64,000 nucleotides of DNA from Candidatus Poribacteria bacterium. GTDB taxonomy: Bacteria > Poribacteria > WGA-4E > WGA-3G. The position numbers and the translations under genes were made by a program. Each line of letters opens with the position of its first letter. Position 1 is the stretch's first letter. Positions 2,782 through 13,432 of the stretch are shown in pieces. A model generated the notes under the pieces. That model did no database searches. It saw only the letters and a list, made by a program, of their open reading frames with translations, and was not told the origin of the DNA. The stretch is taken from contig JAPPIG010000118.1 in assembly GCA_028820635.1 (NCBI GenBank), positions 186,001 to 250,000 on the forward strand, given 5' to 3'.

Positions 2782-2807
2782 GCACCTTTTTCTTTCTAAC
2801 TCGCATC
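2782..2807 (+). promoter_or_regulatory. predicted ECF-type promoter (GCACC-N17-CATC) of the sigma-WD40 gene
   Basis: 'tgcacctttttctttctaactcgcatc' about 40 nt upstream of the start; same spacing as the three other copies at 7332, 8804 and 12021. Confidence 0.5.
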
Positions 2808-2846
2808 TTTATATATGAGTAAGTAAAGAGACACTTCTGGAGGCTT

Positions 2847-5423
2847 TTGGTGAAAAACGAAGATGTTGCGTTGATTCAACGTATCCTTATAGGCGATGAG
2901 AATGCCTTTGCGTGTCTGATTGGAAAGTACGAAAAACAAGTTCATGCACATGCATGGCGGAGGATAAGAGATTTCCATATCGCCGAGGATATTACGCAAG
3001 AAACCTTCCTACAAGTGTATCAGAAACTCGAAACACTGGAAGATGCAACACAGTTTTCAAGATGGCTTTATAAGATTGTGAATAATCTCTGTAACGCCTG
3101 GTTTCGCAAGAATCGGATAAAGACTGAATCGCTGGAAGAAACCGACATTTCAGAGATAGAGACAGAGGCGTATTCTCAATATGTCGCTACAGAACACGCT
3201 CAAACTACTGCGGAAGCGCAACGCGATCTTGTAGAAAAACTCCTTGCGAAGTTGAACGAAAGTGATCGGGAGGTTATCATGCTCCATTACTTTGAAGAGA
3301 TGACATCTGCTGAGATAGGAACTTATTTAGGCGTATCAGAAAATACCGTCAAGAGTCGGATCCGCCGTGCGCGGCAAAGATTAAAGAAGTATGAATTCAT
3401 GATTCAAGAAACTTTGGACATTACAGCTGAAAGGGAACAACGTTCCCAGCATCAATTAAAAGGAGATATTATCATGGCAAAAGAAGTGAAAGAGGCACTC
3501 AACAATAGAAGTAATGGCACCAGACAAGCATCAAATCAGATTTTATCTGACACAGAAGACTATATGCAATGGCGGCTGCCCGAAGGCGCAAAAGCACGCC
3601 TCGGTAAAGGAAATATAACCGGTAATGTCGCTTTCTCACCAGATGGGAATCGACTCGCTGTAGGGAGTTGTATTGGGATTTGGATCTATGATGTGCGTCC
3701 TGGTAAAGAAAAAGAGATTAACCTGTTGACCGAAGGGACGGGGAAAGTCAATGTCCTCGCGTTTTCTCCGAATGGTAAGATTATCGCGAGCGGAGATTTA
3801 GACAAAAAAGTCCGTTTGTGGGAGGCAGACACAGGACAGGACATAGCGACGCTCACAGGACATACATGGGAAATCACTTCAATTGCATTTTCGCCTGATG
3901 GAAACACACTCGCAAGCAGCAGTGGCATCTTGAGTGATTTTATGGAAGATTTTATAGAAATAGAACCAGAGATCAGATTGTGGAACGTTCAAACAAAAGA
4001 AATCAAAACGACACTCAAAGGACATATGAAAGGTATCACTTGTGTCGCATTTTCGCCTGATGGAAATACCCTCGCAAGCAGTAGTAGAGACCAAACGGTA
4101 CAATTGTGGGATACACAAACAGGAGAACAGAAATCTACACTCGCAGAAAACAAAGGAACGATTTCTGCTGTTACGTATTCACCGGATGGTAACATACTCG
4201 CCTTTGCATATCGTAATACAGTGAAATTGTTCGACAAACGCACAGATACACATAATATCACAGTCCAAGGAGATAGACGAAATGTTAATGCAGTGGCGTT
4301 TTCCCCTGATAGCACGACAATTACCACTGGACACCATGACGCGGTGCATTTGTGGGACGCGCAAACAGGTAAACATAAAACGACCTTCAAAGTGAATAAG
4401 AAAAGTGTTCGTTCCATCGCATACTCACCTATTCCTTCTGTTGCATATTCGCCTGATGGCAATACGCTTGCAACTACCGGTACAGACCATATCGTGCAGT
4501 TGTGGGACGTTCAAACGGGAAAACGCAGAAAAACATTCAAGGGACATACGGGGACCTTCACTTCTCTCGCCTATTCTCCTAATGGAAGGACGATTGCTGC
4601 AGGCAGTCGGCGCGGCGTAGGCTTTTTATGGAACCCCCATACCAGACAACACATAGCTACATTCAAAGGACACACGAGTCATATCTCTGCGCTTTCCTAT
4701 ACTCCAGATGGGGATACTGTTGCTACTATCGGTAGAGATGGATCAGTACGCTTGTGGGATGCTGGCAATGATGCATCACAGAAGCACACGAGAAAGCATA
4801 AAGAAATATTTATAAGCCATCCGGACGAATTTAGGGCTATGGCATACGCACCGGATGGAAATACAATTGCTACCGGGGGGACAGAAGGGACAGTATGCCT
4901 TTGGAATGCCCAAACAGGAAAAAAAATAGCAGCACTTGAAGGATATACAGATACTATCAATGCTCTCGCGTTCGCGCCAAACAGCACAACACTTGCAAGT
5001 GCAGGTGATGCCAAAACAATCAGATTGTGGAGCGTTCAAACAAAGCAGGTAGTCGTAACATTTGAAGGACATACAGAAGGTCCCAATTCAGTCGCATTCT
5101 CCCCAGATGGTACAATCTTGGCAAGTGCAAGTGATGACAAGTCAGTTCGATTGTGGGATGTTCAGACAGGAATGCAAAAAACTATGATTGAAACAACACC
5201 TCGATTGAGGTATATCAGCGTTCTGTTTTCACCTAATGGAGATATAATTGTTACCGGTAGTAGGGACCATCTGGTGCAGTTGTGGAATACACAGACAGGA
5301 GAACTCATAGCAACACTTACAGGACATACGGCGGGTGTTAACAACGTGGTTTTTTCTCCCGATGGAAACATCATTGCCAGTGGAAGCCACGACGGTACAA
5401 TCCTACTGTGGGAGTTGCGTTAG
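2847..5423 (+). CDS. ECF-type RNA polymerase sigma factor fused to a WD40-repeat double propeller
   Basis: Sigma70 region 2 (AEDITQETFLQVYQKL...FSRWLYKIVNNLCNAWFRKNR) and region 4 (LNESDREVIMLHYFEEMTSAEIGTYLGVSENTVKSRIRRARQRLKK), followed by about 14 WD40 'xxLWD.QTG' repeats. GTG at 2850 with ggagg upstream is the likelier start. Confidence 0.92.
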   Translation: MVKNEDVALIQRILIGDENAFACLIGKYEKQVHAHAWRRIRDFHIAEDITQETFLQVYQKLETLEDATQFSRWLYKIVNNLCNAWFRKNRIKTESLEETDISEIETEAYSQYVATEHAQTTAEAQRDLVEKLLAKLNESDREVIMLHYFEEMTSAEIGTYLGVSENTVKSRIRRARQRLKKYEFMIQETLDITAEREQRSQHQLKGDIIMAKEVKEALNNRSNGTRQASNQILSDTEDYMQWRLPEGAKARLGKGNITGNVAFSPDGNRLAVGSCIGIWIYDVRPGKEKEINLLTEGTGKVNVLAFSPNGKIIASGDLDKKVRLWEADTGQDIATLTGHTWEITSIAFSPDGNTLASSSGILSDFMEDFIEIEPEIRLWNVQTKEIKTTLKGHMKGITCVAFSPDGNTLASSSRDQTVQLWDTQTGEQKSTLAENKGTISAVTYSPDGNILAFAYRNTVKLFDKRTDTHNITVQGDRRNVNAVAFSPDSTTITTGHHDAVHLWDAQTGKHKTTFKVNKKSVRSIAYSPIPSVAYSPDGNTLATTGTDHIVQLWDVQTGKRRKTFKGHTGTFTSLAYSPNGRTIAAGSRRGVGFLWNPHTRQHIATFKGHTSHISALSYTPDGDTVATIGRDGSVRLWDAGNDASQKHTRKHKEIFISHPDEFRAMAYAPDGNTIATGGTEGTVCLWNAQTGKKIAALEGYTDTINALAFAPNSTTLASAGDAKTIRLWSVQTKQVVVTFEGHTEGPNSVAFSPDGTILASASDDKSVRLWDVQTGMQKTMIETTPRLRYISVLFSPNGDIIVTGSRDHLVQLWNTQTGELIATLTGHTAGVNNVVFSPDGNIIASGSHDGTILLWELR

Positions 5424-7396: not shown

Positions 7397-8641
7397 TTGG
7401 TGAAAAACGAAGATGTTGCGTTGATTCAACGTATCCTTATAGGCGATGAGAATGCCTTTGCGTGTCTGATTGGAAAGTACGAAAAACAAGTTCATGCACA
7501 TGCATGGCGGAGGATAAGAGATTTCCATATCGCCGAGGATATTACGCAAGAAACCTTCCTACAAGTGTATCAGAAACTCGAAACACTGGAAGATGCAACA
7601 CAGTTTTCAAGATGGCTTTATAAGATTGTGAATAATCTCTGTAACGCCTGGTTTCGCAAGAATCGGATAAAGACTGAATCGCTGGAAGAAACCGACATTT
7701 CAGAGATAGAGACAGAGGCGTATTCTCAATATGTCGCTACAGAACACGCTCAAACTACTGCGGAAGCGCAACGCGATCTTGTCCAAAAACTGCTGGCGAA
7801 GTTGAAAGAAAGTGATCGGGAGGTAATTACACTCCATTACTTTGAAGAGATGACCTCTTCAGAGATAGGAACGTATTTAGGTGTATCAGAAAATACCGCC
7901 AAAAGCCGGATCCGCCGTGCACGGCAAAGATTAAAGAAGTATGAATTCATGATTCAAGAAGCTTTAGACATTACAGTTGAAGAGGGACAACGTACCCAAC
8001 ACCAGTCAAAAGGAGATATTATCATGGCAAAAGAAGTGAAAGATGCCCCCAAAGTTGAAGTAAATCCCGAAGAAATCAATCAAAGTCTTACTGAGATGCG
8101 ATCCGAGATTGCTGAACTCCGTGAACAGATTCAGTCTATCGTTAAGGAACAAAACACTCGCCGTTCTGAAGATGATATGTTGCGTCCTCCTCGCTCACAA
8201 CGAGGTGATGCACTTAAGACATTAAGCACACTTCCTGAAGATGCTGAAAATCATGTAGGATGGGGCTATGTTGGTGTATATAAGACCGCTTCCAATGCTG
8301 GCAAATCGCGCATCGCATATTGGTCAGACAGCATTGATATTTTCCTAAACAAAGCACCAGATGCTGACATCGTAAATCTTGCCAGTCTCTTCACAGATCC
8401 TACTATAGTTGCTGTTTTAAGGCAGTTAGTAGAGGGGAACAAATCTATTTCGGATTTGGCAAAAGGAAGCGAAATATCAGAAGATGAGATAGAGGAAGCT
8501 GTGCAGACGTTAATGGACGCGACATTAGTGGCACGCACGGAAGACAAGCTTATTAAACCTCAAAACGATGTAATTTCCTTTTTCCTAAACTTTGTGAGTA
8601 TGACGATCGTTCATCTCGGGCATATCAAACCAAAGAATTAA
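7397..8641 (+). CDS. ECF-type sigma factor fused to a coiled-coil/winged-helix-like C-terminal domain
   Basis: N-terminal ~130 aa identical to the 2847 ORF; C-terminus 'EMRSEIAELREQIQSIVKEQ' coiled coil, then 'TIVAVLRQLVEGNKSISDLAKGSEISEDEIEEAVQTLMDATLVARTEDKLIKP', a wHTH-like module. Confidence 0.88.
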   Translation: MVKNEDVALIQRILIGDENAFACLIGKYEKQVHAHAWRRIRDFHIAEDITQETFLQVYQKLETLEDATQFSRWLYKIVNNLCNAWFRKNRIKTESLEETDISEIETEAYSQYVATEHAQTTAEAQRDLVQKLLAKLKESDREVITLHYFEEMTSSEIGTYLGVSENTAKSRIRRARQRLKKYEFMIQEALDITVEEGQRTQHQSKGDIIMAKEVKDAPKVEVNPEEINQSLTEMRSEIAELREQIQSIVKEQNTRRSEDDMLRPPRSQRGDALKTLSTLPEDAENHVGWGYVGVYKTASNAGKSRIAYWSDSIDIFLNKAPDADIVNLASLFTDPTIVAVLRQLVEGNKSISDLAKGSEISEDEIEEAVQTLMDATLVARTEDKLIKPQNDVISFFLNFVSMTIVHLGHIKPKN

Positions 8642-12160: not shown

Positions 12161-13432
12161 ATGAAAAGCGACACTGTTGCGTTGATTCAGCGTACCCTTG
12201 CAGGCGATGAAACTGCTTTTACCAGTTTGGTGAGCAAATACGAGAAGCAGGTTCACGCGTATGCGCTGCGGGAAATAGGTGATTACCATATCGCTGAAGA
12301 CATTACCCAAGAGACCTTTCTGGAAGTCCATCAGAAGTTAAAGACGCTGAAAGACCCGGAGAAGTTTTCAACTTGGCTATATGCAATTGTCAAAAACCTT
12401 TGTATCGCTTGGTATCGAAAAAATCGGTTTCAACCTGAATCATTGGAAGAGATCCATATCTCGAAAATCGAGACAGATACATATTCGCGGTATGTCGCCA
12501 CCGAACATGCGAAAGCGACTGCTTATGCACAACGCGACCTCGTCAACAAACTGCTTAGGACGTTGAAAGAGAGTGACCGGGAGATAATCACGCTCCACTA
12601 TTTTGATGAGATGACAACTGCTGAGATAGAGACGTACTTAGGAATACCAGAAAATACGATTAAGAGTCGGCTATATCGCGCACGACAGCGGTTGAAGAAG
12701 CACGAATTCATGATTCAAGAGGAATTAGATATTACAATTCAAGGGAAACACTCTTCCCAACAACATTTAAAAGGAGAAATTAGCATGGCAGACGAAGTGA
12801 GAAATGAATCCGAGGTGGACGCAAGGTTGGAAGAAATGCAGCGTCAGATCACCGATCTACAAGAGCAAATTAAGGGCATCGCGGCTAACTCGGATGCGTC
12901 TACTGAATATACGGATGTTCCTGTTACTGATAGTGAAATAGAATATCGCTTTGTGGCTGACTCCGATGCTTCTACTGACTCAGACAAAAAACAAGCACTT
13001 GATGCATTACTCCAACTCTCTCATCATGTGAAAGACCCGATCACGTGGTGCTACGCGGGTGCCTATCAGGCCGCCCCTGGCCAGAGATCAAGCCGCGGTT
13101 CAGTCTGGACGACCAACGTTGATCACTTCCTATCGTTCGCACCGGATGCTGAAATCGTGAAACTTGCGACATTCTTCACAAACCCCACCGTAGTCGCTGT
13201 TTTAAGACAATTAGTGGCGGGCAAGAAATCGGTTACGGATTTGGCAAACGACTGTGGTATTTCCGAAAGTGAGATGGAGAAAACCGTGGAAATGTTAGTA
13301 GACGGAGCGTTAGTGAAGCGTACGGAAGACGATCTCATCGAACCTAAAAACGATGCCGTTTTCTATTTTCTCAACTTCGTCGGTATGGTAACCGTCTATC
13401 TTAATCCTGAAGATTATCATTATCAGGATTAA
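12161..13432 (+). CDS. ECF-type sigma factor fused to a coiled-coil/winged-helix-like C-terminal domain (paralog 3)
   Basis: Sigma70 region 2/4 motifs; C-terminus homologous to the 7397 ORF (TVVAVLRQLVAGKKSVTDLANDCGISESEMEKTVEMLVDGALVKRTEDDLIEPKND). Confidence 0.9.
   Translation: MKSDTVALIQRTLAGDETAFTSLVSKYEKQVHAYALREIGDYHIAEDITQETFLEVHQKLKTLKDPEKFSTWLYAIVKNLCIAWYRKNRFQPESLEEIHISKIETDTYSRYVATEHAKATAYAQRDLVNKLLRTLKESDREIITLHYFDEMTTAEIETYLGIPENTIKSRLYRARQRLKKHEFMIQEELDITIQGKHSSQQHLKGEISMADEVRNESEVDARLEEMQRQITDLQEQIKGIAANSDASTEYTDVPVTDSEIEYRFVADSDASTDSDKKQALDALLQLSHHVKDPITWCYAGAYQAAPGQRSSRGSVWTTNVDHFLSFAPDAEIVKLATFFTNPTVVAVLRQLVAGKKSVTDLANDCGISESEMEKTVEMLVDGALVKRTEDDLIEPKNDAVFYFLNFVGMVTVYLNPEDYHYQD

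Follow-up and report, generated by a model that had tools for sequence, protein, structure and literature searches.

Putative internal translation starts at the sigma-payload seam of ECF sigma factor fusion genes in Candidatus Poribacteria

The 64,000-nucleotide stretch of DNA analysed here (the window) carries three paralogous genes in which an ECF sigma factor is joined in frame to a C-terminal payload, and at each seam the coding sequence reads like a second ribosome-binding site (RBS) followed by an in-frame ATG. Does translation also start at the seam, or is the motif a leftover of history or a by-product of the protein sequence? It is likely (with a probability of roughly 0.8), judging from comparative sequence data, that each locus makes both the sigma-payload fusion and the free payload by internal initiation. 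A first-pass annotation had suggested two such products for each locus; the comparison of homologs argues that the internal signal is under selection, while the fusion and the free effector themselves stand as predictions from sequence.

The three sites in the window and in their genome

The spacing of 8 nt between AAGGAG and ATG, earlier claimed for all three ECF paralogs, is exact in the sequence, with the in-frame ATGs at 3474, 8024 and 12785 (Table 1). The pattern AAAAGGAGANATTANCATGGCA has exactly three matches in the window (3458, 8008 and 12769), with 0 expected in 100 shuffles. In paralog 1 the internal ATG is codon 210 when counted from TTG 2847 or 209 from GTG 2850, and the GTG, with its upstream GGAGG, appears to be the better start. 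Peptides that would mark the N-termini of short products start with MAKEVK, ADEVRNESEVDAR or (M)SSKQKESK.

Table 1. Positions of the full-length fusions, internal start signals and predicted free products in the window, and of FtsZ and PurC fusions in other loci
Feature	Position	Strand	Basis
GGAGG, RBS of full-length paralog 1 (start GTG 2850, spacing 6)	2839..2843	+	Sequence; SD duplex energy -9.3 kcal/mol
Paralog 1 ECF sigma module (sigma2-sigma4) and linker	2850..3473	+	Sequence; 92-94% aa identity to paralog 2 sigma module (carries Sigma70_r2/r4)
AAGGAG, putative internal RBS, paralog 1	3460..3465	+	Sequence; duplex energy -8.9 kcal/mol
Internal ORF from ATG 3474, predicted free WD40 product (MAKEVKEA and WD40 propeller, 649 aa)	3474..5423	+	Sequence, Pfam
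Paralog 2 full-length sigma, coiled coil and winged-helix fusion (413 aa from GTG 7400)	7400..8641	+	
AAGGAG, putative internal RBS, paralog 2	8010..8015	+	Sequence, SD duplex energy
Internal ORF from ATG 8024, predicted free effector (205 aa)	8024..8641	+	Homologs in 49/89 phylum genomes
Paralog 3 full-length sigma-effector fusion (423 aa, ATG)	12161..13432	+	
AAGGAG, putative internal RBS, paralog 3	12771..12776	+	Sequence, SD duplex energy
Internal ORF from ATG 12785, predicted free effector (215 aa)	12785..13432	+	
ECF-FtsZ-PolIII-alpha and ECF-FtsZ fusion genes (one of 1435 aa, the FtsZ and DNA polymerase III alpha one)	L162:356-4660; L163:3922-5157	-	
ECF-PurC (SAICAR synthetase) fusions	L117:244-1839; L123; L211		

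Pfam matches to Sigma70_r2 and Sigma70_r4 were obtained in paralogs 2 and 3, and sigma region 3 gave no Pfam match there, which is the ECF domain content (sigma2 and sigma4, no sigma3). In paralog 1 only, 11 WD40 stretches follow sigma4 (the best at 386-421), and the best 25 of its 72 Pfam matches are all of WD40 type. A search by Pfam for a known anti-sigma domain (zinc finger, ASD, RskA) found none in paralogs 2 and 3 of the window, nor any in the fusions to DnaN, S9, PurC and FtsZ considered below. The protein linker at the seam is probably disordered according to an AlphaFold model, which was used solely to grade linker confidence and is too weak for a fold search (mean pLDDT 60, pTM 0.28); the linker has a low pLDDT of 25-31. 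Within it, an alignment of 18 sequences shows no variation at K204, G205, M209 and E212.

Paralogs 1 and 2 share 84-100% DNA identity from about 2800 to 3499 and represent one recent duplication with differing payloads. Being near-identical, they are not independent, and the window alone therefore offers about two independent cases. Their homology ends near 3500, about 9 codons past the internal ATG, and the payloads are wholly different from there on. Paralog 1 is the least typical case, as its WD40 part appears to have been joined on recently, by a chimeric event or payload swap at this point (window 3474-3510). Paralog 3 had been described as diverged elsewhere while keeping the 8-nt spacing, which agrees with its aa identity of 68% and with identical codons at 54% of shared residues.

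The host genome (G000, 5.97 Mb) has a 16S tail of GGATCACCTCCTTTCT, a canonical anti-SD, and SD starts are in use. At its inferred starts AAGGAG lies mostly 6-8 nt from the start codon with a mode of 7, and compared with this mode and range the seam places an in-frame SD and start codon at a usable distance. In sequence, in spacing and in being free of RNA structure, the RBS and ATG sites agree with the start signals that the genome itself uses. AAGGAG stands 5-10 nt 5' of an internal in-frame ATG in 35/18,639 cases genome-wide (0.19%), the three of the window among them. ECF fusion genes abound in a wider list of 47 sites (from codon 60 on): besides the three of the window it contains three genes of contig C130, two ECF-FtsZ fusions and a group of transmembrane-type ECFs. 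Sites of this kind can also appear by coding chance. This is so in the transmembrane-type ECFs, which were rejected as examples of the same design: a KKEE[TP]M stretch gives AAG GAG GAA NNN ATG, but the Met alternates with Ile, so that the ATG is not conserved, and the Lys and Glu codons vary.

Conservation of the signal and the readings it separates

Relatives of the paralog 2 effector occur in 49 of the 89 Candidatus Poribacteria genomes. We read 110 junctions, namely 75 of clade A, with winged-helix (wHTH), S9 peptidase, PurC or WD40 payloads, and those of a DnaN group. The internal start codon is ATG in 109 of the 110 and GTG in the remaining one, and AAGGAG lies exactly 8 nt before it in 70 of the 75 clade-A junctions. 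Excess synonymous conservation of AAGGAG and ATG across homologs, the mark by which the first-pass annotation had proposed to judge the idea, is evident at the junction Gly codon, which is GGA in 72/75 clade-A loci compared with 26% of the other Gly codons in those genes (and in 33/34 of the DnaN group). On a tree of the sigma region (FastTree, total length 7.7 across the 75 loci) this codon shows 3 inferred changes versus 12-21 at four control Gly columns, although related sequences are not independent and such tree-based counts address kinship only partly. A rate as low was found in only 1 of 31 four-fold control columns, and the Lys before the junction Gly is AAA in 56/56 with 0 changes on the tree. 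Residue -5 varies between K, E, Q and T with the codons AAA, GAA, CAA and ACA, residue -3 is mostly E or D and also A or G, and the codon after the junction Gly usually begins with G; AAGGAG is thus largely retained across these amino-acid changes. This pattern of codons shows AAGGAG and ATG to be conserved as a nucleotide signal beyond protein constraint.

A distant ECF clade of about 28% identity (clade B) occurs in the same Poribacteria genomes (66 genomes at E <= 1e-20) with FtsZ, FtsZ-PolIII-alpha, DnaN, PurC and WD40 payloads. The ATG is kept at 71/71 of its junctions, which were located via an ATG with an upstream SD-like stretch, a choice that favours finding one. An SD of five or more matching nucleotides is present in 32/71, occurring in all three codon registers, and the other 39 have a weaker purine-rich SD (GGGAG or AGAGGG type) with no 5-mer match. 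The peptides at the seam differ widely (RRGT, EGVRI, RGGI, KEGFE, KENT), while the SD and the Met are kept. Over all groups the ATG is kept in 180/181 junctions, mostly 4-9 nt from the SD.

The mean SD duplex energy is -8.8 to -9.0 kcal/mol in all three junction groups, as compared with -1.9 kcal/mol at random internal Met codons and a median of -5.6 at the first ATGs of long ORFs. The junction SDs are stronger than expected from synonymous randomisation, for which codon usage was taken from one genome (G000), by 1.5-3.0 kcal/mol versus 0.35-0.45 at control Mets. In the wHTH/S9/WD40 group the internal ATG is precisely where RNA folding is weakest (-1.6 versus about -5 kcal/mol per 40 nt); in the DnaN group the minimum does not coincide exactly with the ATG. 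In 89% of the fusions the first start has a weaker SD than the internal one, from which free payload is predicted to be plentiful. Window paralogs 1 and 2 have two SDs of about equal strength, and their first start codon is GTG.

The same data bear on what else the seam could be. It could be a mere fossil of once-separate sigma and payload genes, the stop codon having been lost and the RBS and ATG left behind without function, and split operons in an outgroup, a native-like leader in the DnaN fusions (both described below) and the recent copying that links paralogs 1 and 2 fit such a view. Yet GGA has persisted at the junction of diverged loci while control Gly codons have been scrambled, and the SD has outlived amino-acid changes and, in clade B, changes of codon register. 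The operon origin offered as an alternative by the first-pass annotation is thus probably right as history, but the signal being under selection, a mere fossil is an improbable account of the present state. A translational pause, in which the internal SD-like stretch would slow ribosomes and aid sigma folding with no initiation, suits a site at a domain boundary in a probably disordered linker. Pausing would not call for an ATG at 8 nt, for GTG as its sole replacement or for an unstructured start region, and in view of the near-constant ATG and its distance from the SD we regard it as quite improbable.

The linker could instead be conserved as a peptide, K-G-[DE]-x-x-M, for example as a cleavage site, with the SD as a by-product of its codons. 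The four invariant residues speak for this, but the synonymous codons are nearly fixed, the K may be replaced by E, Q or T, and the clade B peptides are quite different while SD and Met are retained, which makes a protein motif very unlikely. The least probable reading is a +1 frameshift with coupled termination and re-initiation, where ribosomes would stop at a TAA or TGA before AAGGAG and restart at the ATG. Leu codons at -6 (window 3454-3459 and homologs) are indeed TTA or TTG in 56/58 cases versus 38% genome-wide, and these read as TAA or TGA in the +1 frame. Against this, 17 of the 75 clade-A junctions have another residue at -6 (S, A, T, I, M or Q), most clade-B junctions lack a +1-frame stop there and a slippery sequence was not identified, and the codons are equally well explained as a possible relic of an ancestral stop codon.

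Payloads, origin and a proposed mechanism

According to Pfam, the fused payloads are winged-helix, WD40, DnaN, S9 peptidase, SAICAR synthetase (PurC), FtsZ, and FtsZ followed by DNA polymerase III alpha, and the sigma type of the window paralogs is joined to DnaN, PurC and S9-peptidase payloads besides winged-helix and WD40 ones. ECF sigma-DnaN in-frame fusions were seen in about 30 Poribacteria genomes (most of L114-L116, L118-L122 and L124-L151, e.g. L114:334-2088), and FtsZ-type ECF fusions recur across the phylum. Loci with interrupted effector frames (L096, L110) and a sigma gene without payload (L104) were left out of the evidence.

In alignments of the DnaN fusions the internal Met falls at the point where free dnaN genes natively start, and the fused linker, GGAGGTATTGGA/ATG, resembles the untranslated leader, GGAGCGATTGGA/ATG, in two of three free dnaN genes (GGAGGTATTGGAATG for the linker versus GGAGCGATTGGAATG for the leader). 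The PurC fusion of L117 has a second SD-ATG (AAGGAG-N5-ATG) inside the frame at the native PurC start, MSQNVITST. The suggestion to look for relatives with separate sigma and effector genes was borne out: a genome of another family in the same order (G018) has two operons in which the effector gene overlaps a separate sigma gene and has its SD within the 3' end of the latter, and a free effector gene in G074 starts with AAGGAG-N8-ATG-GCA (residues MAEEVKD). The split operons, the free effector and the leader-like DnaN linker fit a history in which adjacent genes were joined and the downstream start was kept. A supposed split ECF/WD40 pair at C135:29259 turned out to be a transmembrane-type ECF with a frameshift. 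We also considered fused DnaN or PurC as sole copies, which would force internal initiation, but in the genomes examined they are mostly extra copies beside free genes; a possible exception is G071, with a single purC match within a 503-aa frame.

Under internal initiation, one reading frame would encode the ECF sigma factor and its payload (winged-helix effector, WD40, S9 peptidase, DnaN, PurC, FtsZ or others), and the second RBS and start codon at the seam would let ribosomes begin also at the payload. Such genes most likely arose through loss of the stop codon of a sigma gene, or through a recombination that fused it, ahead of the next gene, whose leader would then have become a translated linker with its RBS and ATG kept by selection. 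The free payload would supply untethered subunits, and since oligomers are expected of DnaN, FtsZ and the coiled-coil effector, mixed complexes would carry few sigma domains, or the free payload might titrate the sigma domain. More tentatively, and we hold this wider idea to be possible rather than likely, Poribacteria could use translational capture repeatedly, ECF sigma genes fusing by read-through onto duplicated DnaN, FtsZ, Pol III alpha and PurC genes, with the captured RBS and start kept and free and sigma-tagged subunits co-assembling into mixed clamps or filaments. If true, this would couple the state of replication or division directly to transcription of the sigma regulon.

Relation to known systems and further observations

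Bacterial internal in-frame starts have usually been found gene by gene via ribosome profiling. Here two ECF clades of a phylum without cultured members share one conserved design of seam, which precedes many unrelated payloads, and sequence comparison by itself is enough to tell selection on the RBS apart from selection on the protein. For CheA-S, IF2-beta and ClpB an internal RBS is known to give a long and a short isoform in frame; these are single gene families, in contrast to a seam reused with several payloads. Cas11 likewise arises from an internal in-frame start in cas8/cas10d, one ORF giving two in-frame products, with the internal start inferred to be stronger than the first and the free C-terminal part joining the same complex in excess (PMC11899642). 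That system serves CRISPR interference, while the present one concerns sigma factors with many unrelated payloads, whose complexes would be hypothetical. RpnS, the C-terminal domain of RpnL, is made separately from an internal RBS and start as a gene within a gene and can act on the long protein (PMC10327210). It differs in belonging to toxin-antitoxin nucleases, in being a short inhibitor and in the contribution of an internal promoter, whereas the free part here is often a complete enzyme or polymer subunit.

Among ECF sigma factors, ECF57 has WD40-like repeats as a C-terminal extension, and some ECF extensions may stem from an ancient translational fusion with anti-sigma factors (PMC8999054). 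The likeness to such sigma2-sigma4 proteins with a C-terminal WD40 or other regulatory domain is one of domain order, and for WD40 it holds for paralog 1 only. The review assumes one protein per gene and makes no mention of DnaN or FtsZ payloads (PMC8999054), and our results suggest caution in taking the gene of an ECF sigma factor with a C-terminal extension to have only one product. In the literature searched we found neither ECF-DnaN, ECF-FtsZ and ECF-FtsZ-PolIII-alpha fusions nor work linking Poribacteria with ECF sigma factors, an absence that is not proof of novelty. These three fusion types are candidates for a direct coupling of core machinery and transcription.

Some further features were seen beside the fusions. 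Free effector domains that carry a hydrophobic, transmembrane-like segment at the N-terminus and have an SD of their own directly adjoin fusions in L062 (2834), L067 (3201), L068 (2508), L076 (2632) and L080 (2781; all ORF offsets). The host genome has 74 ECF-like matches, about 50 of them close relatives and most fused to large C-terminal parts, and it carries dnaN three times in tandem at C118:485513-488928. ECF matches with identical scores extend over about 17 kb at C49:320635-337810 and C125:63822-80997, as a result of either duplication or redundant assembly.
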